Positions 12,916-61,410 of a stretch of DNA of 64,000 nt are shown here, one piece after another (within the stretch, counting starts at the first letter, position 1; each line of letters starts with the position of its first letter). Where the stretch lies: contig DAOUPT010000013.1 in the NCBI GenBank assembly GCA_030626025.1, forward strand, positions 1 through 64,000, in the 5' to 3' direction. The notes beneath the pieces were generated by a model. It had not been told where the DNA came from and searched no databases. It saw only the letters and a program-made list of their open reading frames with translations. Position numbers and translations under genes: made by a program. This stretch comes from Anderseniella sp. Lineage in GTDB: Bacteria > Pseudomonadota > Alphaproteobacteria > Rhizobiales > Aestuariivirgaceae.

Positions 12916-16534
<3,619 letters not shown>

Positions 16535-29948: not shown

Positions 29949-30338
29949 AATTCTACACCTTGTGTACTTTTCCGACACGCTGATAGCGTACCAGACAATC
30001 GATGCAAACATGGGACCACAAATGCAAAATTCTCAAGAAGATGAAAAAACTGGTTACCAAATAGTAAAAACCAGCAACAAATGTAAACCGTACTGTATAC
30101 AACTTGATCTGACGTTTTTAAGCATAATGCGTCGGACAGCACGTTGCCATATCAGTAAACGCGAGCAATAACTTTTGTCGTTCGGGTATTTGTAAGCTAA
30201 AGTCTGACTAGCTCTTTTTTGATGGTCAGAGTACCGTTGTTCGCTCGTCCACTTGCTGGCTTTAGACCCGCATCAATGCGGTTCCAGCGATTTTGGCGAT
30301 GGTTTAAGCGGTTGAGAAAAAGGTTGGAATTTGATTTG
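29949..30338. other. Divergent gap between acyltransferase and Lon-related genes
   Basis: About 390 bases without a credible gene. An in-frame extension of the Lon-related frame begins at 30219, but its 40 extra residues are Arg-rich and unlike the family. The gap must hold two divergent promoters. I see a 13-base palindrome TACAC-CTT-GTGTA near the acyltransferase start and nothing else I can name. Confidence 0.5.
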
Positions 30339-32798
30339 ATGACACAAAAGTACAAACCTGCAGTTCCACTAGTTGCCCGCCAGCTTTGCGTGACCTGCAA
30401 TACTTCACTCTTTAAGTTCAAGACAACCAGGGATTTGCCGCAGCTTGTCGGGCTTATTGGGCAAGAGCGCGCTCTTGATGCGATCAAGATGGCAGCAAAA
30501 ATTCATCATCACGACTTCAATTTATTTGTGCTTGGCACACAAGGAAGCGGACGGCACACGGCGCTGCAAGAGCTTTTCACGCAAGAGGCAACCAGCCGTC
30601 CGGTGTCAGCTGACTGGGTTTATGTGAATAATTTCGAGGCACCCGACAAACCGCTTGCCATTGAGTTACCACCCGGTATGGCCGTTCATCTTAAGTCAGC
30701 CATGGAAGCACTGGTTGATGATCTGGCAAACAACATTCCAGCTCTTTTTGAATCGGATGATTATCAAACACAACGCGGTAACATTGAGCAGGAGTTTGGC
30801 GAACAGCATGAGCGTTCTTTTTCTGAGTTGGGCGCCAAGGCGAGCGAAAAACTTATTACTATTCTACGCACCCCAATGGGGTTTGCTGTTGCGGCATTGC
30901 GTAAGGGCGAAGTTATTAGACCAGATGACTATGACGCATTGAACAAAAGCGAACGCCGCAAGATTGATGACGATATTGCCGAAATTCAGCAGCAACTTGA
31001 AGCGGTTCTCAAGGAAGTTCCCAAACGCGAAAAGAAACATCGCCGCGCCATCGAGGAGTTAAATGCGCGGATAGCAGAAGAGGGCGTTGAGGACTCATTT
31101 GGCGATGTTACGACCGAGTTCAAAAAAATAGAATCTGTAGCAGCCTATCTCAACTCCGTTCGTGCTGACCTTATTTCCAATGCGGATATTTTTCTCAAAT
31201 CCGAGCCAGCAACTCAGGCAGGTGCATTTCCGGTTGCAACTTCAAAACACTATGCCAAACCCCAGTTCCAGCGTTATGCTGTCAATGTCATGGTCTCCAA
31301 TGACCCTGACAGCAAGTCCGGTGCACCGGTTGAAGTTGAGGACATGCCTACGCTTGCCAATTTGTTAGGACGCGTTGAGCATGTATCGGAAATGGGGACA
31401 CTTATAACTGATTTCACGATGATCAAAGCCGGTGCCCTGCATCGTGCTAACAGTGGATATTTGATCCTTGATGCTCTGCAAGTTCTCACCGAGCCTTTTG
31501 CCTGGGATGCACTCAAACGTTGCCTTAAAACCGGTGTTATCTCGATTATTTCAGCCGGAGAGAAACTAAGCCTGGTAACGACATCATCATTGCAACCGGA
31601 CCCGATTCCGTTAAATGTAAGGGTGGCACTGGTTGGTGACCGGTTTCTTTACTATCTGCTGGCGGCTCTTGATCCTGAATTTCAAACCCTTTTTAAAGTA
31701 CAAGCCGATTTCAATGATGTTGTCGAACGTTCAGATCAAACGATGGAGCTTTACGCCGGTATGATTGGCTCAATTGCCCAACGTGAAAAGCTCAGGCCGC
31801 TAAACCCAAAGGCGGTTGCGCTGATGGTACAGGAAGGCACACGGCTTGTTGATGATGCTGAGCGATTGTCGGTTAATATTGGCCGGTTATCAGATATTTT
31901 GCGTGAGGCCGATTATTGGGCCGCAGAATTGAACCATAAGATCATTAGCGTTAAAGATATCGACAAGGCTATTTATGAAACAGACCGGCGGGCAAGCCGT
32001 ATTCGTGAACTGTCACAACAGGCAATCACACGAGGAACGGTTCTGATTGATACCGATGGCCAAAGGTGTGGACAAATTAACGCCCTTTCGGTTCTTCAAA
32101 TCGGCAATCACCGGTTCGGACAACCATCACGCGTCACCGTCAAGGTGCGGATGGGAACCGGCAAAGTGATTGATATTGAACGCGAAGTCGAGCTGGGCGG
32201 GTCGCTGCATTCAAAGGGTGTGATGATACTCTCAAGCTATCTGGCAACAACCTATGCACTGGATGTGCCGATGTCACTTTGGGCAAGTATTGTTTTTGAA
32301 CAAAGTTATGGCGGCGTGGATGGTGACAGTGCCTCAGCGGCTGAATTGTTTGCACTCCTGTCGGCCATTAGTGAGCTTCCTATTGACCAATCTTTTGCAG
32401 TTACCGGTTCCGTTAATCAGCAAGGGGAAATTCAGGCGATCGGTGGTATTAACGAAAAAATAGAAGGGTATTTCGATATCTGCACCGCACGCGGTTTAAC
32501 AGGAAGGCAAGGCGTTATGATGCCGGCCTCAAATGTTAAAAATCTGGCACTTCGCGCGCGGGTGATTGATGCGGTGAAAAAGAAAAAATTCAAGATCATT
32601 CCGATTGAAACAATTGATCAAGGAATTGAAATATTGACGGGCCATACCGCGGGTCAACGCGGTAAAGATGGTCAATACCCGGAAAAATCAATCAATGGCC
32701 TGACCGAAACCCGCTTAAGGGGATTTGCCTTGCGCCGGGCAGAGTTTTCGAAGCTGGCAGACAATAACGAGAATGGAAAACCGGAGGAACCATCGTGA
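30339..32798 (+). CDS. Lon-related ATP-dependent protease (LonB-like, AAA_32)
   Basis: A 819-residue protease of the COG1067 group, distinct from housekeeping Lon. N-terminal domain (to about residue 110), AAA module with a P-loop GTQGSGRHTAL in which the usual Lys is Arg, a long coiled-coil insert (residues about 195-275), the sensor region, and a C-terminal Lon protease domain. The Ser-Lys dyad is Ser664 (DGDSASAAE) and Lys707 (INEKIEG), 43 residues apart as in E. coli Lon, so proteolysis should work. The start MTQKYKPAVP is chosen for family length. Its TGA overlaps the next gene's GTG. Confidence 0.85.
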   Translation: MTQKYKPAVPLVARQLCVTCNTSLFKFKTTRDLPQLVGLIGQERALDAIKMAAKIHHHDFNLFVLGTQGSGRHTALQELFTQEATSRPVSADWVYVNNFEAPDKPLAIELPPGMAVHLKSAMEALVDDLANNIPALFESDDYQTQRGNIEQEFGEQHERSFSELGAKASEKLITILRTPMGFAVAALRKGEVIRPDDYDALNKSERRKIDDDIAEIQQQLEAVLKEVPKREKKHRRAIEELNARIAEEGVEDSFGDVTTEFKKIESVAAYLNSVRADLISNADIFLKSEPATQAGAFPVATSKHYAKPQFQRYAVNVMVSNDPDSKSGAPVEVEDMPTLANLLGRVEHVSEMGTLITDFTMIKAGALHRANSGYLILDALQVLTEPFAWDALKRCLKTGVISIISAGEKLSLVTTSSLQPDPIPLNVRVALVGDRFLYYLLAALDPEFQTLFKVQADFNDVVERSDQTMELYAGMIGSIAQREKLRPLNPKAVALMVQEGTRLVDDAERLSVNIGRLSDILREADYWAAELNHKIISVKDIDKAIYETDRRASRIRELSQQAITRGTVLIDTDGQRCGQINALSVLQIGNHRFGQPSRVTVKVRMGTGKVIDIEREVELGGSLHSKGVMILSSYLATTYALDVPMSLWASIVFEQSYGGVDGDSASAAELFALLSAISELPIDQSFAVTGSVNQQGEIQAIGGINEKIEGYFDICTARGLTGRQGVMMPASNVKNLALRARVIDAVKKKKFKIIPIETIDQGIEILTGHTAGQRGKDGQYPEKSINGLTETRLRGFALRRAEFSKLADNNENGKPEEPS

Positions 32799-33517
32799 GT
32801 GAGATCGGCAAGCAACATTGCAATCGGGTAATCATCGGAGCAACCTGTTTTGCCGACGCTGATGGCGCTATCGCAATGGCGGCAATTCTGGCTCGAAAGC
32901 TCGAAGGCGAAATCCTGGGCTTGTTGATTGAAGATGATGCGATTTTGCGTATTGCCTATTTGCCGTCGGCAAAGACGCTGGCCTTCAAGGGCGGATCTGT
33001 ACAATCAATCACGCCCGAGGCAATGGAGAGCGCTTTTCAAAGAGATGCCAAAGATTTTCAGCGCCGGTTGACCAGGGCTGCCGGACAGATGGCTGTTAAC
33101 TGGTCGTTCGAACGCAAACGCGGACAAATGATGTCGCTATTACAATCGGTCGCATCTACGGGAGATGTCGTCTTTCTGGGGCACCAGCGGACAAGTTTTT
33201 CAAAAGGTGAAATCATCTTTATTGACGATACTCATGGAGAAAAAACCCACCTGTTGGATATGGGCATGGAAATTTCCCGCGAAATGGACCTTTCCTTACA
33301 AAGGATCAATCTTTCCAAATCAGATGAACCGCTGACAAAGCCCGAAACCGGGTTACTTTCAACTGTTTCCGTCAGCAGCAAGGATGAAATGCTGGAATAT
33401 CTTCACAAAACAAACCCTTCAGCCGTTTTTGTTGCCTTAAAAACCGGACACAATTTTGACCTCCATGAAATACTCGAGGCAGCGCGTTGCCCGGTCATTC
33501 TTGCCATTCATGAATAA
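32795..33517 (+). CDS. Uncharacterised protein coupled to the Lon-related protease
   Basis: 240 residues, starting with GTG inside the stop of the protease gene (GTGA), so the two products are probably made together. I do not recognise a characterised family. The N-terminal half alternates hydrophobic strands and helices (RVIIGATCFADADGAIAMAA, EGEILGLLIEDDAILR) and the C-terminal half again (AVFVALKTG, CPVILAIHE), reminiscent of a universal-stress-protein-like or Rossmann fold, but the USP nucleotide motif G-x2-G-x9-GS is not seen. No signal peptide or membrane helix. A partner or adaptor of the protease is a guess from position. Confidence 0.7.
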   Translation: MSEIGKQHCNRVIIGATCFADADGAIAMAAILARKLEGEILGLLIEDDAILRIAYLPSAKTLAFKGGSVQSITPEAMESAFQRDAKDFQRRLTRAAGQMAVNWSFERKRGQMMSLLQSVASTGDVVFLGHQRTSFSKGEIIFIDDTHGEKTHLLDMGMEISREMDLSLQRINLSKSDEPLTKPETGLLSTVSVSSKDEMLEYLHKTNPSAVFVALKTGHNFDLHEILEAARCPVILAIHE

Positions 33518-33528
33518 CATCTGGTGCT

Positions 33529-34935
33529 CTATAAGTGGCTCGCGTCAATCAATGCTGTTTGGCCCGGTTTCGGGATGTCTGTATCCCAACCCAAGCTGTC
33601 ACTGATTTTCTGGCCCAAAGCCGATGCGGCGTTGGGCTCGCCGTGGGTAATAAATGTTTGCAGTGGTGCCTTTTTGAAGCCCTCAAGCCAACTGATAATC
33701 GCGTTTTGATCGCCATGAGCTGAAAATCCACCAATGGTGCTGACCTGGGCTCTGACGGTTACATCTTTACCAAATATCCTGACACTTTTTGCACCATCAA
33801 CAAGACGCCGACCCAGGGTGCCCCGGGCCTGATATCCGGTTATCAAGATCGTATTTCCTCGATTGCCAAGACCGTGTCTTAGATGATGTAAAATCCGGCC
33901 GGCTGTACACATGCCGCTTGCTGAAATAATAATCGCACCCGAACGGATCGAATTTATCGCCATTGATTCCTGCACGCTTCTGGTAAATGTCAACGTTAAT
34001 TCTCCACCTGATCGGGCCCGCCATTCGGCAAGCTTTTTAGCCTCCTTGTCAAACAAGTCAAAATGGCGTCGTGTCAATTCGGTGACGCGTTGTGCCATCG
34101 GCGAATCAAGGAAAACGGTCAGGTTTTTGACCCGGCCAAGATAAGTCAGGTGATACAGGTAATAGATCAATTCCTGGGTTCGACCGACCGCAAAGGCAGG
34201 CACGATAATATTGCCCTTGCCGCTAACGATTGTATCATTGATGGCATCAACAAGTTCATCTAGTGAGGGAGACAGGGCTTTATGCTGGCGATCACCATAG
34301 GTCGATTCAACCACCAGATAGTCAGTTTCCTCGATCAGGCATGGATCACGCAAAATAGGTCTGCCGGGCTGACCAAGGTCACCTGAGAAAACGATTTTCC
34401 GCTCAGCGCTTTTATCCCCGACCCAGATTTCCAGAATTGCAGAACCCAAAATGTGTCCGGCATCGCGCATACGTATTCTAACACTTTCGCGGGGATTAAA
34501 AATTTCATCATATGGTTTTGCTTCCACCTGCAACAGCGCATTGTCGGCATCAGCCATCGTGTAAAGCGGTTCTATGGTGCGGCCATGATTTTTCCGCTTT
34601 CGGCTGGCGCGTTCGGCTTCTTTTTCATGGATATAGGCACTGTCGCGCAGCATTATTGCGAGCAAATCTGCTGTCGCCTGCGTCGAGTAAACCGGTCCTT
34701 CAAACCCATCCCGGCAAAGCTTTGGCACAAGTCCCGAGTGATCTATATGAGCATGAGTCAAAATGACGAAATCAATATCGCGTGGCTGGAATGAAAATTT
34801 AGCGCGATTTTTGTCGTCAGCATCGCGGTCCCCCTGAAACATTCCGCAATCTACAAGAAACCGGACGCCTTGCCCTTCAACCAGATAGCAAGAGCCGGTG
34901 ACTTCTCCAGCGGCCCCCAGAAACGTAATTTCCAT
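33529..34935 (-). CDS. MBL-fold / beta-CASP RNA-processing nuclease-like protein
   Basis: 468-residue protein of the RNA-specificity-domain metallo-beta-lactamases (CPSF73/YSH1-like). Zinc motifs: LTHAHIDHSGLVP (motif 2), RDAGHILGSA, VFSGDLGQPGRPIL and a C-terminal ISASGMCTAGRILHHL with GGFSAHGDQ. All ligands for a two-zinc site are present, so it should be a nuclease, probably of RNA. I start at the second ATG (MEITFLGAAGEVTGSC), which is where the family begins; an ATG six codons upstream is possible. It converges on the Lon pair and is followed upstream by the LOG gene. Confidence 0.88.
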   Translation of the reverse strand: MEITFLGAAGEVTGSCYLVEGQGVRFLVDCGMFQGDRDADDKNRAKFSFQPRDIDFVILTHAHIDHSGLVPKLCRDGFEGPVYSTQATADLLAIMLRDSAYIHEKEAERASRKRKNHGRTIEPLYTMADADNALLQVEAKPYDEIFNPRESVRIRMRDAGHILGSAILEIWVGDKSAERKIVFSGDLGQPGRPILRDPCLIEETDYLVVESTYGDRQHKALSPSLDELVDAINDTIVSGKGNIIVPAFAVGRTQELIYYLYHLTYLGRVKNLTVFLDSPMAQRVTELTRRHFDLFDKEAKKLAEWRARSGGELTLTFTRSVQESMAINSIRSGAIIISASGMCTAGRILHHLRHGLGNRGNTILITGYQARGTLGRRLVDGAKSVRIFGKDVTVRAQVSTIGGFSAHGDQNAIISWLEGFKKAPLQTFITHGEPNAASALGQKISDSLGWDTDIPKPGQTALIDASHL

Positions 34936-34971
34936 ATTTTTTTCAATCCTCATATACCGCTGAAACCATAT

Positions 34972-35853
34972 TTATTCCGGAAGGTTGCCATTATAGAAAT
35001 CGCTTATCAAACGCACTGCTTCTTTGGCCGTATCGACGACTTCAAATAGCGCCAGATCGGTGGGTTCGATAAACCCTTCTTGTGCGAGAAATTCAAAATT
35101 CACTGCGCGTGACCAGTATTCTTTTCCAAACAATATTATCGGTAGAGGTTCTACCTTTTTCGTCTGCACGAGGGTTAAAACTTCAAACACTTCATCAAGG
35201 GTGCCAAACCCGCCAGGAAACGCCACGAGTGCTTTGGCCCGCATGAGAAAGTGCATCTTGCGCAGACCGAAATAGCGAAACCGAAAACACAATTCAGGCG
35301 AGATATACGGGTTGGGATCCTGTTCTTTGGGTAGTTCAATATTAAGACCGATGGAACGTGCGCCGACATCATCGGCTCCCCTGTTTGCCGCTTCCATGAT
35401 CCCCGGTCCGCCACCGGTTACCATTACAAAATCACATTGTCCTTCTTCCTGAAACAGTTGTGAAATAATGGAAGAAAATTTGCGGGCCTCATCATAATAC
35501 TTAGTGTAATTTTTACGCTTGCTGAGAACTTCTAACCGGGCCAGCAGCGCTTTGTTTTTTGGCGCCTTTTGTAATCCGTCCCGCAGCACTGCGATCTCGC
35601 GTTCCAGTTGCCCCCCTGATCGCAACCGTGCGCTACCAAACACAATGATTGTCGAGGTGACGCCTTGTTTGCGCATGGTCCATTCAGGTTTTAAGTATTC
35701 CAGTTGCAGCCGAACTGAACGCAGATCGTCATGTTCGAGAAAGTCGGGATCATTGGTCGCCAGGCGAAAGGGTTCACTTTTAACCAGCGTTCGTACGCGC
35801 CGGGCAAGATCATCAAGATTGGAATTTGAGAGTTTGTGGGCTTTTGTTGTCAT
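34972..35853 (-). CDS. LOG-family (TIGR00730) nucleotide phosphoribohydrolase
   Basis: 293 residues of the lysine-decarboxylase-like Rossmann family. The two hallmarks are VTGGGPGIMEAANRGA near residue 150 and VAFPGGFGTLDEVFEVL near 210. Family enzymes cleave nucleoside 5'-monophosphates, either cytokinin precursors or AMP/IMP, to a base and ribose 5-phosphate. Which substrate applies here is unknown. The first 60 residues are an extra N-terminal segment seen in the longer bacterial form. It lies between the MBL and permease genes on the same strand. Confidence 0.85.
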   Translation of the reverse strand: MTTKAHKLSNSNLDDLARRVRTLVKSEPFRLATNDPDFLEHDDLRSVRLQLEYLKPEWTMRKQGVTSTIIVFGSARLRSGGQLEREIAVLRDGLQKAPKNKALLARLEVLSKRKNYTKYYDEARKFSSIISQLFQEEGQCDFVMVTGGGPGIMEAANRGADDVGARSIGLNIELPKEQDPNPYISPELCFRFRYFGLRKMHFLMRAKALVAFPGGFGTLDEVFEVLTLVQTKKVEPLPIILFGKEYWSRAVNFEFLAQEGFIEPTDLALFEVVDTAKEAVRLISDFYNGNLPE

Positions 35854-39091: not shown

Positions 39092-40309
39092 CTAGTTCCC
39101 TTGGGCTCGTTCAGTAACAGGAGTGTCCGCAAGTACTTTGTCGCTGGGGTAAACAATGACGCGAGCACCCTCTTTAAGCCCACCGAGAACTTCAGCAAAG
39201 CTCAGGGAAAACTTTCCAAGAGTAACTGGCGTGAGAACCGCAATGCCATTTTGCTCAGTATAGACGGCCCATTGATCCGCTTTACGAAACAATGCGCCAA
39301 GCGGCACCCTGAGAGCATCTTTCTTGTGTGAGGTAATGATACGTACTGTGACCTTGAATGAATGCCCCAGCTTTTGCCATTGAGCGGGTGGACTGGTAAA
39401 ATCGAGCACCACATTGACCCTTTGTTCCTCAATGCCCAAGGCTGAAACCTTGGTGAAACCAATCGGGTCTTTGCGTAATACGCGCGCATTAAGAGCGCCT
39501 TTGCCACCCCAGTCCTCAATTCTTGCAAGTGTTCCCGGCGCGATGCCCACGGCATCAACAGATAACAGATCAACAACGACCTCAATATCTTTCAAATTCC
39601 CCACTTCCAGCAACGAAGCACCAGCCCCAACGACCTGCTCACTTTCGGTGAACAGTTTAAGGACCGTGCCGGCAATCGGCGCAACAATTGCCACACAGCA
39701 TTGATCTTCCAGTTCCGGGCGCGAAATCTGGGTCGGCAACAACTCGCGCGCCTGTGCGGACTCCAGTTCACGCCGCTTGAATTCAAGGCTTGCTTGCGCC
39801 TGCGCCAATTGGGCATTTTTAACAGCCACATCCAGCTCTGCCTGCTGCAGAGCACGGATGGAAATTGTATGGGTTAATGCAAGTTTTTGCGCCCGCGCCA
39901 ATTCAGTTTTCGAAAAATCAAGAGCTGAACGTGCTCGGGCAATTTCAGCCTGTCCCAATTTCACACCGGCGTGCGCTGATTTAGTGGCAGCAGACAATTG
40001 ACGCCTTGTACGGATATCACGAATTGGCGGGTCAACCGGACGCAGGCGAGCAATCCGCTCGCCCTTTTCCACCCCATCACCGGCCTGCACACTCAATCGC
40101 TCCAGCTTGCCGCTGATGGGGGCCGAGATGCGATAGACATTTTTGATGCGGGTTTTACCATCTTCATCAACAGTTGTTTCGATTTCCCCGCGTGAAATAA
40201 CCGCAATATCCACCCCTACCGGTTGTGGCTTGATCATAATATAGGCACCAATTGCCAAAAAGGCGGCAATTACAACAATACCAAGACGCTTTATCCATTT
40301 TAAAAACAT
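39092..40309 (-). CDS. HlyD-family periplasmic adaptor of ABC exporter
   Basis: 405 residues: one N-terminal membrane helix (GIVVIAAFLAIGAYIMI), a lipoyl half-domain (RISAPISGKLERLSVQAGDGVEKGE), a long alpha-hairpin coiled coil (about residues 85-195) and barrel domains with IVAPIAGTVLKLF. It connects the inner-membrane ABC pump to the periplasm or an outer-membrane channel. It is the third gene of ATPase-permease-adaptor, three bases after the permease. No outer-membrane TolC gene is nearby. Confidence 0.88.
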   Translation of the reverse strand: MFLKWIKRLGIVVIAAFLAIGAYIMIKPQPVGVDIAVISRGEIETTVDEDGKTRIKNVYRISAPISGKLERLSVQAGDGVEKGERIARLRPVDPPIRDIRTRRQLSAATKSAHAGVKLGQAEIARARSALDFSKTELARAQKLALTHTISIRALQQAELDVAVKNAQLAQAQASLEFKRRELESAQARELLPTQISRPELEDQCCVAIVAPIAGTVLKLFTESEQVVGAGASLLEVGNLKDIEVVVDLLSVDAVGIAPGTLARIEDWGGKGALNARVLRKDPIGFTKVSALGIEEQRVNVVLDFTSPPAQWQKLGHSFKVTVRIITSHKKDALRVPLGALFRKADQWAVYTEQNGIAVLTPVTLGKFSLSFAEVLGGLKEGARVIVYPSDKVLADTPVTERAQGN

Positions 40310-40312
40310 AAC

Positions 40313-42679
40313 TTATTCCTTGGTCTTGAGAACACGAATGATGTCAAGTTGCCGCACGCGGCTAATGACAATGAACGCCGAGAGCACCGAAGCAATGATC
40401 ACCACGATACTTGACCAGCCATAGGCTGAATTTTGAACGACAAATGGTATACGGAACAGGTCACTTTGAAATCCGCGCACCACCGCCCAGGAAAATCCAT
40501 AGCCCAATATCCAGCCCACGGGTTGGGCCACAAGCAAGATGATGGCCAGCTCAATAATCAGCACCCGGGAAACCTCATTTCTGGTGAAACCAAGCACCCG
40601 CAAGCTGGCCAGTTCACGGGCTCGCTCCGACAATTGAATACGGGCGCTATTATACACAACACCAAAGGCGATAATAACAGCCAATACAATATAGACTGTC
40701 GTCATAATGGTAATATTTTGTTCGATTGTTTCGCGAAACTTTTTTAACGATTGGGTTTGCAAGGCAATAGATGCTGCCTTTGGCATAGCCTTGATCGCAG
40801 CATATATTTCTTTATGCCGGTTTGCATCAAGTTCAACATAAACACCTGAGCGACGTGGTCCAATTCGCGATAGCCGGTCTAGTGCAGCGATATCCATATA
40901 TGCGCCAAGTCCAAAATAACTTCGTATGATGTCAACCACAGGCACTTTAACTTCATGCCAGCCTTCTTCAAGCAGCTTCATACTGATTACATCACCGCGC
41001 TGTGCCCCAAGATGCATGGCCAGCCGTTCACTCAATACCAGACCCGATGACGGTAAACTGATCGGCGCAAGCTCTATATCGAGAAGCCGACTGAGACGCA
41101 TATTTTGCGGCTTGCCGGTGATAGCCACACGGCGAGAGTGTGAGCCATGACTCATTTGCACCATCATCACCCGGTAAGGTTCCACAGACAAAACCCCGGG
41201 CAATTTTTTAACCGCATGAACCGCTGTTGGTGCCAAAGGTGTTGAAAAGCTTATGGTTGCATCCTGCCGGTCGGTTCTAAAGTACACCGTATCAATCATG
41301 AAGTTGATCGAGCCAAAGGAAAACATTGCGGTCACCAGCAACGCAACCGCCAGTGAGGTGCCAAGCATGGTGAAGCCCGAGCGCAGAGGCCAGCGGACGA
41401 GGTGCCGAAAGGCCATCACCGTCAGTTGTGACATCGTGCTTGCCAGCCATTGGCCAAACGCACTTGATTTACGATATAGCGTTGGTGCGGCTGGCCGCAT
41501 GGCGGTTGCCGGTGGCAGGGAGGCCGCCGAAAGGGCAGACTTCAACCCACCCAATAAAGCAGCAGCAATGCCTATACCTGCGGCCAACAGGTATACATCG
41601 AGCGAGCGTTGAAAGATAAAAAACGGGAAATTGAAAAATTCCGAATATAGACGCGTAAGCCCATCACCCAGCCAGGTTCCTGCCGCAAAACCTATCACCA
41701 CCCCGGTAAGTGAAATCACCAACACCAGTTTGACATAGTGCGCAGAAACCGCCAGTTGGCTGTATCCAAGCGCTTTTAGTAAACCAATCTGCTCACGTTC
41801 CAGCGCAACCAGACGCGACATAATCATGTTGATCAGGAATGCTGAAACAAACATGAAAATGGGCGGAATAACACCTGCCATAGCCTGCAGCTGTTTCAAT
41901 TCGCTATCCAGAAACGCATTAGACATCTGGTCTTTTCTACCATAGGCAGCCGTGCCGCCGTAAGGTGCCAACAACCGGTCCAGCGCGGCAATGACCGCCG
42001 GTTGTGAAGTTCCCGGCAACAATGTCAATGAAACTGAATTAAAGGCACCATCAAGCTTGGTCAGGCCAGCCACTTGTTGCTGGCGCATCCAGATAACCCC
42101 AAAGCGGCGATAGTCTGGCACCAGATCACCGGGGCCAAGAGCATAAATAAACTCTGGCGACATGGCGACACCGGTAATCTGAAATTTCACTTGCCGTCCT
42201 TGCAAGATACCAGCAAATGTCGAGCCAACGCGAAATCCATGGGCTTTGGAAAACCTGTCAGAGACCACTGCCTCGCCTGATTTTCCCGGAGTTGGCAAAC
42301 GTCCGCTGCGAAGGTACAATTTATTAAGGCGCAAGGTGTCGTGATCGGGCAGGGAGACCACCAACCCGGATGCAGGCTCAATCATGCCGGTTATGTCCAG
42401 CAGCACGGGTTCAACAATACGACCCTGGGCGCCAGCCACACCCGAAATAAGCCCGATCTCGCGCATCAGTGACTGCGGCGCCCGGCTTGCCGTTGCAAAA
42501 ATTGAAGCAAACTGATGGCGCTCATAATACGCCCGCCGCGTCTCGTCTAATGAGCGATAGGTGCCGATGGATAAAATCAGGGTTGCCACACCGCAGGCAA
42601 GCACCAGCGATATGGCCAGGGCTTGCGGCCATAATCGTTTGAAATCACGCAGCAGCTTTTTATCAAGTGTTCTCATCAC
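40313..42679 (-). CDS. ABC exporter permease, double FtsX-domain
   Basis: 788 residues, an inner-membrane permease with an N-terminal helix after a basic segment (DFKRLWPQALAISLVLACGV), a large periplasmic domain, three helices near residues 275-400 (FtsX domain 1, with VALEREQIGLLKALGYSQLAV), a second periplasmic domain, and three C-terminal helices (FtsX domain 2, with RELASLRVLGFTRNEVSRVL). The duplicated FtsX layout is that of lipoprotein-export and DevC/MacB-like systems. Cargo is unknown. Confidence 0.88.
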   Translation of the reverse strand: MMRTLDKKLLRDFKRLWPQALAISLVLACGVATLILSIGTYRSLDETRRAYYERHQFASIFATASRAPQSLMREIGLISGVAGAQGRIVEPVLLDITGMIEPASGLVVSLPDHDTLRLNKLYLRSGRLPTPGKSGEAVVSDRFSKAHGFRVGSTFAGILQGRQVKFQITGVAMSPEFIYALGPGDLVPDYRRFGVIWMRQQQVAGLTKLDGAFNSVSLTLLPGTSQPAVIAALDRLLAPYGGTAAYGRKDQMSNAFLDSELKQLQAMAGVIPPIFMFVSAFLINMIMSRLVALEREQIGLLKALGYSQLAVSAHYVKLVLVISLTGVVIGFAAGTWLGDGLTRLYSEFFNFPFFIFQRSLDVYLLAAGIGIAAALLGGLKSALSAASLPPATAMRPAAPTLYRKSSAFGQWLASTMSQLTVMAFRHLVRWPLRSGFTMLGTSLAVALLVTAMFSFGSINFMIDTVYFRTDRQDATISFSTPLAPTAVHAVKKLPGVLSVEPYRVMMVQMSHGSHSRRVAITGKPQNMRLSRLLDIELAPISLPSSGLVLSERLAMHLGAQRGDVISMKLLEEGWHEVKVPVVDIIRSYFGLGAYMDIAALDRLSRIGPRRSGVYVELDANRHKEIYAAIKAMPKAASIALQTQSLKKFRETIEQNITIMTTVYIVLAVIIAFGVVYNSARIQLSERARELASLRVLGFTRNEVSRVLIIELAIILLVAQPVGWILGYGFSWAVVRGFQSDLFRIPFVVQNSAYGWSSIVVIIASVLSAFIVISRVRQLDIIRVLKTKE

Positions 42680-42680
42680 A

Positions 42681-43406
42681 TCACCATTCCAGCTGTGATG
42701 GCGTTAGTCGTTTGTCACTGACTTGCTCTCGAACAATCTCACCATCGGCAAAATACAATGTCCGGTGCGCCAGTTTGTGAATGACCGCATTGTGTGAGAT
42801 GATTGCCGTGGTCGTGCCCAACTCGTCATTGATGCGGGTCAGAGCTTCAAGCACCAGCCGCCCGGTTTTGGAATCAAGCGACCCGGTTGGCTCATCACAC
42901 AATAGCACCTCGGGGTTTTTCGCAATGGCCCGTGCGATCGCCACCCGCTGTTGTTCACCACCTGACATCTGGGCTGGAAAATGGTTCATACGCTTTTCAA
43001 GCCCGACGAGTGCAAGCGCATCTTCAGGCCGCATCGGGTTGGTGGAAATTTCAGTCACCAGGGCGACGTTCTCGCGGGCTGTCAAACTTGGAATAAGATT
43101 ATAAAACTGAAACACAAAACCAACATGGCGGCGTCGAAAATTTGTCAGTTCAGTTTCACTAGCCCCGGAAAGATCAAGATCTTTAAACATCACCCGGCCC
43201 GAAGTGGCCGTATCCAAACCGCCAATAATATTCATAAAAGTAGACTTGCCGCTGCCAGATGGCCCCAGCACAACAGAAAGTTCACCTTGATAAAGTTTGG
43301 TGCTGACCCCTCGCAAAGCATAAACGTCAACCTCACCAGTATGGTAGGTCTTTGTCAGGTCCTCGACCGTGAAAACGGCCACTTTCTTATTCTGCCGTAT
43401 ACTCAT
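42681..43406 (-). CDS. ABC exporter ATPase (LolD/MacB-like)
   Basis: 241 residues with Walker [14 protein letters not shown]-loop [17 protein letters not shown], signature [16 protein letters not shown], Walker [14 protein letters not shown] and the switch His in TTAIISHN. It belongs to the LolD/FtsE/MacB branch that pairs with FtsX permeases. First gene of a three-gene minus-strand operon; gaps are 1 and 3 bases. Its promoter lies in the gap shared with the VIT1/CCC1 gene. Confidence 0.92.
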
Positions 43407-50745: not shown

Positions 50746-50776
50746 CAATATACCGACATTGATCAGGGAGAAAATG

Positions 50777-53816: not shown

Positions 53817-53819
53817 CCG

Positions 53820-55844
53820 ATGGAAAACCGTTCAAACCTTGCCCGCCTGCTGCGCCCACACTCTATAGCAGTTGTGGGTGGAGGTGTGTGGTGCAAATCG
53901 GTTGTCGAGCAATGTCAGAAAATCGGCTTTGAAGGCCCTGTCTGGCCGGTGCATCCCTATAAGAAGACGATTGCCGGATTGCCGGTTTTTTCTCAACCAA
54001 ATGAGTTGCCTGCGGCACCAGATGCGGTGTTCATCGGCGTTAATCGTCATGCGCTGATTGAAACATTGCCTGAACTTAATGCTTTGGGCGCAGGCGGTGC
54101 GGTTTGTTTTGCCAGTGGCTTCATGGAAACCGGAGAAAGCAGTTTGCATCAAAAACTGCTCAAAGCAGCTGGTGATATGGCGTTACTTGGTCCCAATTGT
54201 TATGGCTTTATCAACTACCTTGACCGCTGTGCTCTATGGCCGGACCAGCATGGGGGAGAAGTCGTTGAGCGCGGTGTGGCCATTATCACCCAGTCGTCGA
54301 ATATTGCCCTGAATATCACCATGCAAAGACGCGGCCTGCCGGTAGCATATATGGTCACTGCTGGCAATCAGGCCCAGACCGGTCTTGCTGAAATTGGCGA
54401 GGAGTTGCTGAACGATGATCGCGTAACGGCACTGGGCTGCCATATTGAAGGATTTGGTGATCTGAGGGCTTATGAAGCTTTGGCAAAAAAAGCTTATGGG
54501 CTTGGCAAGCCGGTTATAATTTTGAAAGTCGGTCGATCCAAACAAGCCCGTGCCGCATCCATATCCCACACGGCCTCGCTCGCAGGAGACGATGCAGGGG
54601 CGCAGGCCTTTATCGACCGGCTCGGCTTTGCCCGTGTTGAAAATCTGCCGCAATTTCTGGAAATGCTCAAACTGGTTCATGTTCACGGACGCCTTGGCGG
54701 AACGCGGGTTGCATCGCTGAGCTGTTCTGGAGGTGAAGCCTCTCTGGTTGCAGATGCCGGTCACATTCATGGCATAAGTTTTCCCAAACTTACCGCATCA
54801 AGAAAAAAGCGCTTGGACAATAGTCTTGGCGAACTGGTTTCACTTGCCAACCCGCTTGATTATCATACTGACATTTGGCGCGACCGCACGGTGATGGGCG
54901 AGGTATTTGCAGCAATGAGCGGGCCGGATATTGATTTGACCATTGTGTTGCTTGATTTCCCGCAAACAGACAATTGCCGGGATGAAGACTGGATAATCGC
55001 TATTGAAGCTGTGGAAGACGCAGCTGCTCAGACCGGCCGCCCCTTTGGCGTGGTTGCGTCCCTGCCTGAAAACATGCCTGACATTTACGCAAAGCGGTTG
55101 ACAGAAAATAATATTGTTCCTCTTTGCGCAATTGATGATGCGCTGGCTGCGATGGTCGGCGCATCATGTGTTTTACGCAAACCTGCCGCTGAGCCCGTAC
55201 TGCTTGCAAACTCGTCGACTGACATCGAAGTAATAAGTGAGCACGCAGCCAAAATTGAACTGGCAGAATTTGGCTTGTATATTCCTGTCAGTGCCAGAGC
55301 CGGGACTGTAAGTGAAGTTGCAAAAGCAACTGAACAATTGCCATTTCCGGTGGTTCTCAAAGGCGAAGGGTTTGCGCACAAATCTGAAGCCGGTGCTGTT
55401 GTTCTTGATCTCAAGGACAAACAAGCTGTTTGCAATGCTGCACAAAAAATGAACGCAGACAGTTTTCTTGTTGAAGAACAAATTACCGATGTCGTTGCAG
55501 AATTGCTGATTGGTGTTACCCATGACCCTGCTCACGGGTTTTTATTGACTCTGGCTGCTGGCGGTGTTCTCACCGAACTTTTGCAGGACAGCCAGACATT
55601 ACTTGTTCCAGCCACTAAAGATGAAATAGGTGTCGCGTTAGATAGCTTAAAATGCGCCGTGCTGCTGAAAGGGTATCGCGGCAAACCGGCGGCTAATCAT
55701 TCGGAAATTGTTGATGCTGTTCTTGCGGTGCAAAATTATGTAATTTCAAACGCAGGGAAAATTTCTGAAGTTGAGATTAACCCGCTAATGTGTACGCCGA
55801 AAAATGCAATTGCCGCAGATGCTCTTATATCCAGGGAAAAATAG
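53820..55844 (+). CDS. ADP-forming acyl-CoA synthetase (acetate-CoA ligase family)
   Basis: 674 residues with the fused layout of ADP-forming acyl-CoA synthetases: CoA-binding domain (RPHSIAVVGGGVWCKS), ligase domain with phospho-His250 in AASISHTASLAGDD, and a C-terminal ATP-grasp (VVLKGEGFAHKSEAGAVVLD, EVEINPLMCTP). The reaction is reversible: acid + CoA + ATP to acyl-CoA + ADP + phosphate. Here it could charge gamma-butyrobetaine or carnitine, or recover ATP from betainyl-CoA. AMP-forming ligases are the usual choice for this pathway, so the family is notable. It starts three bases after the dehydrogenase. Confidence 0.85.
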   Translation: MENRSNLARLLRPHSIAVVGGGVWCKSVVEQCQKIGFEGPVWPVHPYKKTIAGLPVFSQPNELPAAPDAVFIGVNRHALIETLPELNALGAGGAVCFASGFMETGESSLHQKLLKAAGDMALLGPNCYGFINYLDRCALWPDQHGGEVVERGVAIITQSSNIALNITMQRRGLPVAYMVTAGNQAQTGLAEIGEELLNDDRVTALGCHIEGFGDLRAYEALAKKAYGLGKPVIILKVGRSKQARAASISHTASLAGDDAGAQAFIDRLGFARVENLPQFLEMLKLVHVHGRLGGTRVASLSCSGGEASLVADAGHIHGISFPKLTASRKKRLDNSLGELVSLANPLDYHTDIWRDRTVMGEVFAAMSGPDIDLTIVLLDFPQTDNCRDEDWIIAIEAVEDAAAQTGRPFGVVASLPENMPDIYAKRLTENNIVPLCAIDDALAAMVGASCVLRKPAAEPVLLANSSTDIEVISEHAAKIELAEFGLYIPVSARAGTVSEVAKATEQLPFPVVLKGEGFAHKSEAGAVVLDLKDKQAVCNAAQKMNADSFLVEEQITDVVAELLIGVTHDPAHGFLLTLAAGGVLTELLQDSQTLLVPATKDEIGVALDSLKCAVLLKGYRGKPAANHSEIVDAVLAVQNYVISNAGKISEVEINPLMCTPKNAIAADALISREK

Positions 55845-55846
55845 AC

Positions 55847-56629
55847 ATGGAAAATCCGATCAAGACACATATTCAAGACGGCATTCTGGAGGTCACACTG
55901 GACCGCCCTAAAGCCAATGCGATTGATCTTGCAACAAGTCGTATCATGGGTAATGTATTTGCTGACTTCAGGGACAACCGGGATCTCAAAGTGGCGATTA
56001 TTCAGGCTGCGGGAGAAAAGTTCTTTTGCCCCGGTTGGGATTTGAAAGCTGCTGCTGATGGCGATGCTGTTGATGGCGATTACGGCGTTGGCGGGTTTGG
56101 CGGACTGCAGGAATTGCGGGACCTGAACAAGCCGGTGATTGCAGCAGTGAATGGCATTTGTTGTGGCGGCGGACTGGAACTTGCCCTTTCAGCCGATATC
56201 ATTCTGGCCTCAGATATTGCAACTTTTGCCCTGCCGGAAATTCGATCGGGCACTGTCGCTGATGCAGCCAGCATCAAATTGCCCAAGCGCATCCCCTATC
56301 ACATCGCCATGGAAATGCTGATTACCGGGCGTTGGCTGGATGCAGAGGAAGCCCACCGCTGGGGTTTTGTCAACCACATCTACGCTCTCGAAGAACTGCA
56401 CGAAAAGGCCAGAGAAATGGCTCGTATGATAGCCTCTGGCCCGCCACTGGTTTATGCTGCAATCAAGGAAATTGTTCGCGATGCTGAGGGTTCGAAATTT
56501 CAAGACACAATGAACAGGGTAACTAAGCGCCAGTTAAAAACCGTCGACACACTCTATGGGTCAGAAGACAATCTGGAAGGCTTTAAAGCTTTTGCAGAAA
56601 AACGGGACCCTGTTTGGAAGGGAAAATAA
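55847..56629 (+). CDS. caiD: Carnitinyl-CoA dehydratase CaiD
   Basis: Interconverts crotonobetainyl-CoA and L-carnitinyl-CoA. 260 residues of the crotonase fold: ILEVTLDRPKANAIDLATS at the start, the oxyanion-hole segments FFCPGWDLKAAADG and VNGICCGGGLELAL, and the ending AFAEKRDPVWKGK. These match E. coli CaiD (as I recall it) almost motif for motif. The start used lies two bases after the preceding stop and has AGGGA upstream; an earlier in-frame ATG overlaps the ligase and is rejected. Last gene of the operon. Confidence 0.9.
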   Translation: MENPIKTHIQDGILEVTLDRPKANAIDLATSRIMGNVFADFRDNRDLKVAIIQAAGEKFFCPGWDLKAAADGDAVDGDYGVGGFGGLQELRDLNKPVIAAVNGICCGGGLELALSADIILASDIATFALPEIRSGTVADAASIKLPKRIPYHIAMEMLITGRWLDAEEAHRWGFVNHIYALEELHEKAREMARMIASGPPLVYAAIKEIVRDAEGSKFQDTMNRVTKRQLKTVDTLYGSEDNLEGFKAFAEKRDPVWKGK

Positions 56630-56721
56630 CCTGTAGCAGTATCAAGCCCGCTTTTGTTATGCTTGAGTCGGTTATTCCCAACGGGTTTGCCCCGCTTGTC
56701 GTCTTTGGTTTTATTATAGTG

Positions 56722-56738
56722 TTGACGGGCCGGGTCAA
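56722..56738. promoter_or_regulatory. Inverted repeat TTGAC-N7-GTCAA before the MAT gene
   Basis: Perfect five-base arms about 70 bases before the methionine adenosyltransferase start, in a 179-base gap. It resembles a FNR/CRP-like pair, but the spacing is three bases too wide. It may be a site for another dimeric regulator. I see no SAM riboswitch in this gap. Confidence 0.3.
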
Positions 56739-56808
56739 TTATTGAGAGCATGGCTGGAAACTCAAAGCATCTGAACTCGCACGAGGCCATAGAAAGAAGT
56801 AGAAACCG

Positions 56809-58008
56809 ATGGTTAAAAATTTTACTTTGAGGGCGCAGCCAGTTGATCCGTTGCCAGTTGAAATTGTCGAGCGCAAAGGCATAGGTCACCCTGATACTAT
56901 TTGCGATGCGCTTGCCGAAAATCTGTCACGCAATCTTTGCCATTGGTACCTTGAGCACATGGGTGAAGTTTTGCATCACAATGTCGACAAGGCCTTGTTG
57001 CGTGGCGGCAGCGCACATGCCTTTTTTGGTGGCGGTGAAATTCTTGAACCGATTGAGATTTATCTAACCGGCAGGGCAACGACGTTGGCAAGAGGTCTCG
57101 AGGTTCCAATTGCCAAAATTGCCATTGAAGGTTCCCGCAAGTGGTTGAAGGAACATTTACATGCACTCGATGTAGAAAACCATGTACGCATTCATTGTCT
57201 GGTACGCCAGGGTTCGGCAGATCTGACAGATTTATTTGAACGCCATAGCCAACAACGGGTTCCAAAGGCCAACGATACTTCATTTGGTGTCGGCTACGCG
57301 CCTGCCAGTCCACTCGAATTGGCAGTGCTTGAAGGTGGGCATGTTCTTGATCGCACAGCCGGTGGCCCGACATGCCCGGGCCGTGGAGAAGACACCAAAA
57401 TCATGGCTATCCGGCGCAATGACAATGTCGAGTTTACAATTGCCTGTGCGATGATTGCTCCAAACATTGATGATGCGGATGCCTATGGGCAGGAATGTGA
57501 CAGCATTAGAAATGACCTCAATGGCGTTTTTGGTCGGCACGGTTTTGTAAATTCAAAAATCGCTGTCAATGCTGCCGATGATCCACAACATGACAGTTAT
57601 TATTTGACGGTAACGGGCACATCGGCTGAAGCTGGAGATGATGGGCAGGTTGGTCGGGGCAATCGTGCCAGTGGTCTGATCACGCCCTATCGCCCCATGA
57701 GCCTTGAGGCCGTATGCGGTAAAAACCCGGTCAATCATGTCGGCAAACTCTATAATATTGCGGCTGCAGAAATTGCCAATAGGTTGGTTGAGGAATGCGC
57801 CTTGATTGAAACTGCACATTGCTGTCTTGTCAGTCAGATCGGGCGCCCGATCACCGAGCCTGCTGCTGTCGATATCGCGATATCGACAATTGATTCCAGC
57901 CTGACAGGCGAACATCGTGAGGCCGTTCAGGATATTGTTGCCAGTGTGTTGTCAAATCTGCCATTAATGTTTGAGCGTTTTATGAAGGGTGAAGTGCAAC
58001 TATATTGA
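56809..58008 (+). CDS. Methionine adenosyltransferase, archaeal type
   Basis: Makes S-adenosylmethionine from methionine and ATP. 399 residues of the archaeal AdoMet synthetase family, which shares little sequence with the usual bacterial MetK. Signs: ERKGIGHPDTICDALAENLS at the N-terminus, GGGEILEPIEIYLTGRAT near residue 75, GGPTCPGRGEDTKIMAIRRN near 180, and GRGNRASGLITPYRPMSLEA near 280. Next to it is a SAM-using protein repair enzyme. This type is rare in bacteria and probably came by transfer; a normal metK is presumably elsewhere in the genome. Confidence 0.9.
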   Translation: MVKNFTLRAQPVDPLPVEIVERKGIGHPDTICDALAENLSRNLCHWYLEHMGEVLHHNVDKALLRGGSAHAFFGGGEILEPIEIYLTGRATTLARGLEVPIAKIAIEGSRKWLKEHLHALDVENHVRIHCLVRQGSADLTDLFERHSQQRVPKANDTSFGVGYAPASPLELAVLEGGHVLDRTAGGPTCPGRGEDTKIMAIRRNDNVEFTIACAMIAPNIDDADAYGQECDSIRNDLNGVFGRHGFVNSKIAVNAADDPQHDSYYLTVTGTSAEAGDDGQVGRGNRASGLITPYRPMSLEAVCGKNPVNHVGKLYNIAAAEIANRLVEECALIETAHCCLVSQIGRPITEPAAVDIAISTIDSSLTGEHREAVQDIVASVLSNLPLMFERFMKGEVQLY

Positions 58009-58044
58009 AAATAAAATAAACAGCTATGTAAATTGGGTAACCGA

Positions 58045-58725
58045 ATGGACTACAGCAAAGCGCGCCACCGCATGGTGGATCAACATATCTCTGGTCGCGG
58101 CATAAGCGACCCGCTGGTTTTGGCGGCAATGAAAAAGGTTGAAAGGGATAAGTTTGTTCCGGCACTATTTCGTGACCAAGCTTATAGCGACCGGCCTTTA
58201 CCGATTGAATGCCAACAGACAATTTCACAACCTTACATGGTTGCACTGATGACCGAGGCCTTGCGGCTTAAAGGTGACGAGCATGTGCTGGAGGTCGGCA
58301 CAGGTTCGGGTTACGCTGCTGCGGTGCTTGCCGAAATCGTCGACAAAGTAATTACCATTGAATACATAGAGCAATTGGCTGACCATGCCCGCAGCGTGCT
58401 GGAAGAATTGAAGTACGATAATATTACAGTTGTTACGGGCGATGGCTCGAAAGGATGTGCGGAATTTGCACCTTACGATGCAATTGTGGTTACGGCCGGT
58501 GGCCCGGAAGTACCGCAATCCTTACGCAATCAATTGAAAATCGGTGGGCGGCTGGTCATACCTGTCGGCCGTGCAGAGACCATCCAGATGCTGGTCCGTG
58601 TTACAAGGTTGGGGCCGGAAAAATTCAGCGAGGAAAATCTGTGTGGTGTGCGTTTCGTGCCACTGGTGGGTGAGGAGGGCTGGAATCACAGCCAACACGA
58701 AAACTGGTCAGACCCGCACCTTTAA
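58045..58725 (+). CDS. pcm: Protein-L-isoaspartate O-methyltransferase
   Basis: Repairs isoaspartyl damage in aged proteins, using SAM. 226 residues: RMVDQHISGRGISDPLVLAA at the start, PIECQQTISQPYMVALMTEAL before the SAM-binding VLEVGTGSGYAAAVLA, then YDAIVVTAGGPEVPQSLRNQ and GGRLVIPVG. The ATG giving MDYSKARHRM fits the family; a TTG four codons earlier is less likely. It follows the MAT gene by 36 bases in the same direction. Confidence 0.93.
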   Translation: MDYSKARHRMVDQHISGRGISDPLVLAAMKKVERDKFVPALFRDQAYSDRPLPIECQQTISQPYMVALMTEALRLKGDEHVLEVGTGSGYAAAVLAEIVDKVITIEYIEQLADHARSVLEELKYDNITVVTGDGSKGCAEFAPYDAIVVTAGGPEVPQSLRNQLKIGGRLVIPVGRAETIQMLVRVTRLGPEKFSEENLCGVRFVPLVGEEGWNHSQHENWSDPHL

Positions 58726-58743
58726 ACAACGAGGTAGCAATCG

Positions 58744-59649
58744 ATGATGGACAACACATCTGTAGATAACCTGAAAGCCAATAGTGTGATCGAGGCCAAT
58801 TTGCGCGAGATGGCAGATTTGCTTGAGCAACAACAGGCAGACGGGTTTCGCGTCAAAGCCTATCGCAATGCTGCCGACACCATTTCCACCATGGATTGTC
58901 CTTTGTCTTCAATCCTCAATAAAGATGGCCTGCAAGGCTTGATTGGATTATCCGCGATAGGTAAATCCATTGCCTCGGCAATTGCCGAGATGTTGCACAC
59001 AAGCCACTGGGCGCAACTGGAAAGGCTGCGTGGAGCAACTGCGCCTGAAAAGCTCTTTTGCACTGTTCCGGGAATTGGCCCGGCGCTGGCCGGTGAGATC
59101 CACGACGAACTTCATATTGACACTCTGGAAGCGCTCGAAATGGCTGCTCATGATGGCCGGTTGCAAAAAGTGTCAGGGTTTGGTGCTCGCAGGGTCGCCA
59201 TGGTAAAGGCGAGCCTGCTTGAACGTCTCGGCAGGCGGCGGGTCCGGGCTGCTCATCTGACAATTGCGCCCGGTGTGGATTTGTTACTTGATGTGGATCG
59301 TGAATATCGCCAGCGCGCAGCAAAGAATGACCTGCGAAAAATTGCACCCAGGCGGTTCAATCCCGATGGAAAGGCCTGGCTTGCGATCATGCATACCCGC
59401 CGCCAAGATTGGGTTTTTACGGTGATGTTTTCCAATACGCAACGCGCCCATCAACTGGAAAAGACCCAGGATTGGGTTGTTATTTATTTTCACACCGATG
59501 ATACAGCCGAAGGCCAGTGCACAGTCGTTACCGAAACCACAGGCCCGTGGCGTGGATATCGAATTGTACGTGGCCACGAAACCGAATGTGCGTCTTATTA
59601 TCGTCAACACATGGCCAAGCAGTCTGAAGACGAAGGTCTGGAGCTCTAA
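58744..59649 (+). CDS. PolX-like helix-hairpin-helix protein without polymerase domain
   Basis: 301 residues. The N-terminal 170 or so residues match the first domains of family X DNA polymerases: NLREMADLLEQQQADGFRVK, AYRNAADTISTM, GLSAIGKSIASAIAEML, then helix-hairpin-helix segments TVPGIGPALAGEIHDEL and KVSGFGARRVAMVKA. The palm domain with the GS and DxD motifs is missing. The remaining 130 residues (VDLLLDVDREYRQRAA, AWLAIMHTRRQDWVFTVMFSN) are of no family I know. It probably binds DNA at nicks or gaps. It begins 18 bases after pcm. Confidence 0.75.
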   Translation: MMDNTSVDNLKANSVIEANLREMADLLEQQQADGFRVKAYRNAADTISTMDCPLSSILNKDGLQGLIGLSAIGKSIASAIAEMLHTSHWAQLERLRGATAPEKLFCTVPGIGPALAGEIHDELHIDTLEALEMAAHDGRLQKVSGFGARRVAMVKASLLERLGRRRVRAAHLTIAPGVDLLLDVDREYRQRAAKNDLRKIAPRRFNPDGKAWLAIMHTRRQDWVFTVMFSNTQRAHQLEKTQDWVVIYFHTDDTAEGQCTVVTETTGPWRGYRIVRGHETECASYYRQHMAKQSEDEGLEL

Positions 59650-59674
59650 ACCAAATTCGACAGGAGATGGATGG

Positions 59675-60271
59675 ATGAAAATTGATAGACTGGTGGAAAA
59701 GATCAAGGGCCTTGAAGATGATCTGGATCAGGTTGTTGACGAACACCGGCAGCAATTCCAGTATGAGATCAAAAATAAACGTGTCCAGTTTGAACAGGCT
59801 GTCAGGCAACGCCACCGAGAGCTGAAGACCAATCTTTTCCGCTATCTGTTTGAGCGTGGGTTTCTGGCTGTTCTGTTCGTGCCGGTGGTTTATTCGTTAA
59901 TTTTTCCGCTGATCTTGCTTGATGTTTTTGGCACGCTTTTTCAATTTGTCTGCTTTCCGGTTTACGGTATCAAAAAGGTCAAACGATCCGATTTCATCGT
60001 TCTCGACCGCCATCATCTTGCCTATCTCAATATATTTGAAAAAATGAATTGTGTTTATTGCAGTTATGCCAACGGTCTTCTGGCCTATGTCCGCGAGATT
60101 GCCGGTCGTGCAGAAGAGCATTGGTGCCCGATAAAACATGCCCGGCGTATTAAAGGACAACATCACCTTTATTGGACATATAGCGAATACGGCGATGCGG
60201 AGGGGTTTTTGAACAAAGAAGCCAAAATCAAGAAAAGAAGTCTGGCGCAAAACAAAAAGGATTGGGAGTGA
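59675..60271 (+). CDS. Uncharacterised membrane protein with coiled coil and cysteine motif
   Basis: 198 residues, start chosen at the ATG eight bases after CAGGAG. I do not recognise the family. Residues 1-60 are charged and likely coiled coil; residues about 63-100 are hydrophobic (GFLAVLFVPVVYSLIFPLIL, DVFGTLFQFVCFPVYGI), one or two membrane helices. After this comes NCVYCSYANGLLAYVREIAG and HWCPIKHARRI, a CxxC plus a third Cys and His that could bind metal. Fourth gene of the run that starts with the archaeal-type MAT. It converges on the dehydrogenase with four bases between. Confidence 0.65.
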   Translation: MKIDRLVEKIKGLEDDLDQVVDEHRQQFQYEIKNKRVQFEQAVRQRHRELKTNLFRYLFERGFLAVLFVPVVYSLIFPLILLDVFGTLFQFVCFPVYGIKKVKRSDFIVLDRHHLAYLNIFEKMNCVYCSYANGLLAYVREIAGRAEEHWCPIKHARRIKGQHHLYWTYSEYGDAEGFLNKEAKIKKRSLAQNKKDWE

Positions 60272-60275
60272 CAGG

Positions 60276-61409: not shown

Positions 61410-61410
61410 T

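Follow-up and report, generated by a model that had tools for sequence, protein, structure and literature searches.

Bacteria are usually assumed to supply all their methyltransferases from one SAM synthetase, and the protein-L-isoaspartate O-methyltransferase Pcm, which methylates isoaspartyl residues using SAM, is most important in non-growing cells. A passage of PMC1282579 gives GHPD as common to all known SAM synthetases, and for the methionine adenosyltransferase (MAT) of P. furiosus a passage of PMC8727953 names H30, H59, N61, D141, L142, D280 and Y268 as SAM-contact residues. In the 64,000-nucleotide stretch of DNA analysed here as a whole (the window), an archaeal-type MAT gene is followed by a Pcm gene (Table 1), and no description of such a pairing was found in the open-licence literature, searched with narrow terms and with most subscription papers lying outside its scope.

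Table 1. Features of the window around the MAT-Pcm pair
Feature	Position	Strand	Size or remark	Basis
Archaeal-type methionine adenosyltransferase (MAT)	56809..58008	+	399 aa	PF01941, NF003366, motifs
Accessory Pcm (protein-L-isoaspartate O-methyltransferase)	58045..58725	+	226 aa	PF01135, NF001453, Pcm tree
Helix-hairpin-helix (HHH) protein like the front of PolX	58744..59649	+		PF14716, PF14520
Protein with hydrophobic stretch	59675..60271	+	last gene of putative four-gene operon	translation
Intergenic stretch before MAT, 179 bp	56630..56808	+	likely place of operon promoter	ORF map, sequence
Glutamate/leucine-dehydrogenase-like gene beside 2-oxoacid dehydrogenase E2-/E1-like genes	60276-63999			
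LonB-like protease, beta-CASP metallo-hydrolase, lysine-decarboxylase/LOG-like gene	30219..35853	.		Pfam
HlyD / FtsX permease / ABC ATPase module	39092..43406	-		Pfam, tblastn

The first-pass annotation had read the gene at 56809 as an archaeal-type MAT, and the family models agree: PF01941 matches over the full length (residues 7-395, E 4.7e-144, 480.5 bits vs a cut-off of 27), and the NCBIfam subfamily NF003366 gives 490 bits against a cut-off of 435, the protein staying under the own cut-off of each of the NCBIfam equivalog models PRK04439.1-1 to 1-4. Its PDB matches comprise six distinct sequences, every one an S-adenosylmethionine synthase, and all of them presumably archaeal. The protein carries the stretches GHPD, HHN, NDTS, GED, GDDG, GRGNR, GKNP and HVGK, together with GSADL and YLT; thus the catalytic-histidine GHPD signature and the SAM-contact residues are present, the P. 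furiosus numbering having been matched by motif, and from its residues we infer that the window MAT would be an active enzyme.

The bacterial MetK family, represented by its C-terminal domain PF02773, has no match at the window locus and one in the genome (G000, completeness 100% by tool estimate), at C93, where an intact bacterial MetK of 397 aa is followed by trmB-, rimP- and nusA-like genes, named by eye. The prospect that the archaeal-type enzyme would be the only and general SAM synthetase of this bacterium, against which the earlier idea of a dedicated unit was to be checked, therefore falls away. Pcm is also represented elsewhere, by a surE-linked gene at C23, where the row reads serS-surE-pcm-lipoprotein (named from translations), and by a divergent, weak-scoring copy at C51. 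Because metK stands at C93 and pcm at C23 and C51, the MAT and the Pcm of the window are both extra copies. Contamination is an unlikely source of the contig, since it is 71.7 kb long, carries gyrB-like (14078-16534) and polA-like (25963-28830) genes, again named by eye from translations, and the GC content of MAT (0.494) is close to that of the window (0.505).

The Pcm open reading frame covers 58033-58725, with ATG 58045 as the better start, and the protein matches PF01135 (E 2.3e-66, 224 vs 20.3 bits), NF001453 (258.1 bits, cut-off 188) and TIGR00080 (228.5 bits, cut-off 159.05), so that the Pcm proposed earlier as the neighbour of MAT is confirmed, 36 bases downstream on the same strand. 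The protein belongs to the PIMT family; there is no surE beside it, it falls outside the surE-type clade, and it has 48% identity to the surE-linked copy of its own genome. As to other members of the family, the divergent Pcm of a genus-mate (G051, L071:1435-2115) has its best match in chain t of PDB 8qby (E 2.7e-43), an entry which we take to be the Paracoccus complex I; because of this match, the divergent Pcm of G051, and the similar one at C51, may belong to a respiratory complex as a subunit and not act in repair. On Rhizobium etli plasmid p42b (L112:5004-6980) a Pcm is fused to an erythromycin-esterase domain, and long Pcm open frames in G040 (C99), G047, G056 and G057 may represent the same fusion. 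No MAT was found near Pcm in the 10-kb stretches of R. etli and Ensifer plasmids examined.

Because of the 36-base gap and the common strand, MAT and Pcm are likely to belong to one operon, and its promoter is likely to lie in the intergenic stretch before MAT. Within this stretch no sigma-70-like site of the plus strand was listed, and the sigma-70 and terminator scans gave results near chance. Two candidates for control were tried and rejected, namely an EcfG-type promoter (three matches in the window vs 2.2 expected, none upstream of MAT) and riboswitch control of SAM genes (no Rfam match at 56500-60500 or at the metK/MAT loci L026, L002 and L001). Downstream of Pcm the row continues on the same strand, with 18 bases to the helix-hairpin-helix gene and then 25 bases to the gene at 59675, and is closed by the glutamate/leucine-dehydrogenase-like gene on the opposite strand. 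The helix-hairpin-helix protein matches neither a polymerase nor a PHP domain; its PolX match is confined to residues 19-168, and X-family polymerases are matched in PDB. Its gene stands directly after Pcm also in G046. The last protein of the row has no Pfam or NCBIfam match; its relatives occur in six plasmid records, and in the two examined they lie near genes for copper ATPase, USP, CbpM and ppsA.

Further away in the window, the protease, metallo-hydrolase and LOG-like genes, more than 20 kb upstream of MAT, are possible stress-type company of the putative operon. Relatives of the HlyD/FtsX/ABC module abut MAT in G025, and of its HlyD part in G273 (both by tblastn), and a like-annotated set follows MAT on a Bosea plasmid, by annotation only. 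The cluster at 60276-63999 occurs near MAT also in G046 and G039. The row at 50759-56629, which ends 179 bp before MAT, resembles a carnitine-type breakdown cluster: it contains BKACE-like and hydroxyacyl-dehydrogenase-like genes (by eye), a CoA ligase, an enoyl-CoA hydratase whose best match is crotonobetainyl-CoA hydratase, under its cut-off, and a GbdR-like regulator, also under cut-off.

The archaeal-type MAT had been called unusual in bacteria, and the counts bear this out. PF01941 was found in 7/69 genomes of the family, and NF003366 in 8/386 genomes of the class (own genome included in both counts), a second class-wide search giving the same eight among 385; in the phylum sample PF01941 matched in 3/397, these being the own genome, a 40-residue piece (G646) and a below-cut-off match (G501). 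The three other genomes of the genus have no PF01941 match. Searches around relatives found MAT in 1/4 genomes around G145, 4/23 around G274 and 1/16 around G214. On plasmids the gene occurs in Phenylobacterium, Bosea and Methylocystis, with more distant copies in Cupriavidus, Burkholderia, Streptomyces and haloarchaeal plasmids (29 records in total); G646, G501 and the fragments on Ciceribacter, Sinorhizobium and a second Methylocystis plasmid were left out. A phage origin of MAT was considered and rejected, there being no match in phage records; in viral contigs a single-protein query found no MAT match, and an alignment query found four distant MAT relatives of 21-34% identity.

Sixteen genomes have a MAT that belongs to the clade of the window MAT or stands close to it by similarity. 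In ten of them (G000, G038, G039, G040, G145, G214, G269, G274, G808, G809) Pcm is its same-strand neighbour, the adjacency being counted in G269 although only the C-terminal part of MAT is present; the unpaired ones are G025, G046, whose contig ends 245 bp after MAT, G057, where MAT lies in four frame-shifted pieces and was counted as present, G115, G273 and G806. MAT comes first in eight of the ten pairs and Pcm in G808 and G809. In G040, G145, G274, G808 and G809 the second gene has a candidate start that overlaps or abuts the stop codon ahead of it, though a later start could also be the true one. Adding the three plasmid copies that are intact (Phenylobacterium, Bosea, Methylocystis), none of which has an adjacent Pcm, brings the count to 10/19. 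Since G806, G808 and G809 came from the search around G274, the sixteen are not an even sample, and the fairer count is that of the class sample minus the own genome, with 4/7 paired, from four families; it includes G352, whose MAT belongs to another branch and is outside the sixteen. The MAT-paired Pcm of G145 (L060:1309-2073) possibly starts with a signal-peptide-like stretch, as judged by eye, other starts being possible.

The canonical metK gives a measure for comparison: in 13/13 genomes no Pcm match was found in its fetched flanks, which covered about 1.5 kb around the C-terminal domain and were in some cases cut by contig ends, G806, G808 and G809 being outside this check. Fisher's test gives p 4e-4 for 10/16 vs 0/13 and p 0.07 within the class sample (4/7 vs 0/6), kinship being uncorrected in both, and a rough binomial estimate for 4/7, which assumes a 75-gene island with three Pcm genes, gives p about 1e-3. 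In the family an accessory-type Pcm, defined as having at least 56% identity to the window Pcm by a cut-off set after the gap in the list was visible, occurs in 6/7 genomes with MAT vs 3/62 others (p 5e-6; p 3e-5 without the own genome; counted by genus, p 0.21, not significant). An island-type Pcm without MAT is found in three family genomes, and also on rhizobial plasmids.

The phylogeny of this MAT, proposed earlier as a check, places it within a clade formed by 17 of the 19 class rows (99/96) in a tree of 34 rows, from which G057 and G269 are absent. Eight archaeal rows and HRbin37 stand outside this clade, and we infer an archaeal donor, the tree indicating no particular donor lineage. 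The paired state changes at least five times on the tree, gains and losses not being told apart, and a constraint uniting the paired rows was rejected. A Megaera plasmid and G352 form part of another branch; the G352 gene (C2:361438-362622) belongs to a 1.1-Mb genome without a metK or Pcm match, and its MAT is possibly a replacement of MetK. In the Pcm tree of 48 rows, which includes 19 of 25 surE-linked genomes, the 19 surE-linked copies and one G273 copy without a surE match make up a 20-row clade (100/100) with no MAT-linked Pcm among its rows. The ten MAT-linked Pcms fall in two regions, four among the family and rhizobial-plasmid copies and six in a 12-row clade (99/93), so that at least two accessory lineages, neither of them in the surE-linked clade, have supplied partners, and pairs therefore formed or swapped partners more than once.

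The pair also occurs as a single protein. In G214 (L041:8607-10484) one frame of 625 aa holds PF01941 at residues 11-376 and PF01135 at 432-614. Its MAT half reads GQAD for GHPD, RHG for HHN, GLT for YLT, GRGG for GDDG, GHGNQ for GRGNR and GRS for GKN, with H.GK absent. GHPD, GRGNR, GKN and H.GK are kept in 31 of the 32 aligned MATs; HHN, YLT and GDDG vary in some of the 31, the HHN position being HYN in G273, HFN in three Cupriavidus/Paraburkholderia rows and HHW in G352, Parageobacillus and PGU19. With GHPD and other catalytic motifs lost, the G214 protein probably does not act as a SAM synthetase; the fusion favours a physical link between MAT and Pcm and argues against channelling as its purpose. 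In G269 a frame of 759 aa joins an ABC exporter, the last third of MAT with its motifs, and Pcm; since the junction with the exporter may come from faulty assembly of a doubtful contig, a MAT-Pcm fusion there is no more than likely. As a speculation to which we give little credit, MAT and Pcm of this clade may bind each other, the MAT oligomer being a platform that would hand SAM to Pcm, and the MAT half of G214 may be a pseudoenzyme, catalytically dead, that serves the attached repair enzyme as scaffold or regulator.

What surrounds MAT elsewhere has a common theme, stress and energy shortage, with some neighbours that do not fit it. G046 has a CBS-like, Pcm, HHH and USP-like row (CBS and USP read from translations) on a contig other than that of its MAT, and its Pcm is the nearest to the window Pcm, with 74% identity. 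Genes for GroEL, an alcohol dehydrogenase and USP stand on one strand in G039, with Pcm and MAT next on the other, and G808 has on one strand a hibernation-type S30AE/cold-shock protein, USP, Pcm and MAT. The order in G273 is HlyD, MAT, phosphoketolase and acetate kinase, and the plasmid copies lie near copper resistance, acetate kinase, PpsA, PPK2, FtsH or USP genes. The neighbours outside the theme are an L,D-transpeptidase and an IF-2B family gene in G115, and DHO-dehydrogenase-like and molybdopterin-enzyme genes in G806. The one-strand row of G025 (metal ATPase, MFS, PPK2, CFA synthase, a small ORF, a PEMT/ICMT-type methyltransferase and MAT) places two other SAM users ahead of MAT in place of Pcm (L021:4680-9152), which suggests that a SAM consumer on the same transcript is what matters.

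We lean, with modest confidence, towards the reading that the window holds an accessory unit for making SAM, placed in a stress-survival island, in which a SAM source may be expressed together with its client. The archaeal-type MAT has spread between lineages of the class, as its single clade, plasmid copies and patchy presence show, and in ten of the sixteen genomes it has an accessory Pcm as its same-strand neighbour, the two being probably co-transcribed. The island may be switched on in stressed or non-growing cells and would then supply the isoaspartyl-repair methyltransferase along with newly made SAM for its use, regardless of the state of the growth-linked metK. Other methyltransferases would be the clients in at least one lineage. 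The SAM probably enters the common pool of the cell and is not kept as a private one. This reading draws on the presence of metK and a surE-linked pcm elsewhere in the genome, the recurrent pairing, the kept motifs and the stress-type neighbours. Counted against it are the unpaired MATs (6/16 and the plasmids), neighbours that do not use SAM, the catalytically deficient G214 fusion, the signal-like start in G145, the class-sample p of 0.07, the genus-level p of 0.21 and the island-type Pcms without MAT. The first-pass annotation had proposed a dedicated damage-repair unit independent of the general SAM supply: the unit is supported by the 10/16 pairs and the one clean fusion, and the independence is left unproven in view of the 6/16 genomes and three plasmid copies without an adjacent Pcm, the neighbours in G025 and the non-catalytic MAT half in G214. 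The proposal is therefore better put in a softer form, as a SAM source of a stress island that would be expressed along with its client.

Unpaired MATs, in 6/16 genomes and on plasmids beside stress-type genes, are also what would be expected of a general spare SAM synthetase, a stress isoform upholding the whole SAM pool when MetK fails, with Pcm just another protective gene of the island. The HlyD/ABC neighbours agree with it, and islands with relatives of the HHH gene duplicate further housekeeping genes, such as GroEL, ribose-phosphate diphosphokinase and F-type ATP synthase. We regard this explanation as rather unlikely, however, since Pcm is the neighbour observed most often, either before or after MAT, some pairs have ends that may be coupled and one pair is fused, the trees have the pairing arising or being lost repeatedly, and the binomial estimate for 4/7 gives p 1e-3. 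The possible overlaps, adjacency and the in-frame protein of G214 could be taken further, to a dedicated channelled unit in which a MAT-Pcm complex passes SAM from one partner to the other; this seems quite improbable, because the MAT half of that very protein lacks the catalytic residues and is unlikely to make SAM for its Pcm half, and because G025 and others have no Pcm partner. Finally, mobile stress islands may simply have carried both MAT and Pcm, which would then have come to lie side by side without any functional tie: each gene is accessory and rare, gene order further out varies between genomes, and the association at the genus level is not significant. We consider such hitch-hiking very improbable against the recurrence in four class-sample families, the possible coupled ends and the fusion.

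If the accessory-unit reading is true, a portable SAM synthetase of foreign type combined with a repair enzyme would suggest that starved or dormant cells are limited in their repair by the supply of methyl donor, and the MAT-Pcm pair would offer a simple two-gene system for testing such a limitation. The same pairing in several distant relatives suggests a portable protein-repair kit under stress.

Compared with the described systems, the window protein is like the archaeal MAT family in its full-length match and motif stretches, and differs in that its host has a bacterial MetK as well, in forming part of a clade of its own class and in its Pcm neighbour. The bacterial MetK is expected to catalyse the same reaction, but is encoded by a separate gene at C93, and in 13/13 genomes no Pcm match lies near it. 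The canonical surE-linked Pcm is of the same family as the window Pcm and differs from it in the surE neighbour, the clade and the sequence, at 48% identity. The plasmid-borne Pcm-erythromycin-esterase proteins of rhizobia are, like the window Pcm, accessory; they differ in that no MAT was found in the R. etli and Ensifer stretches examined, and in their fusion, the window Pcm having a single domain.
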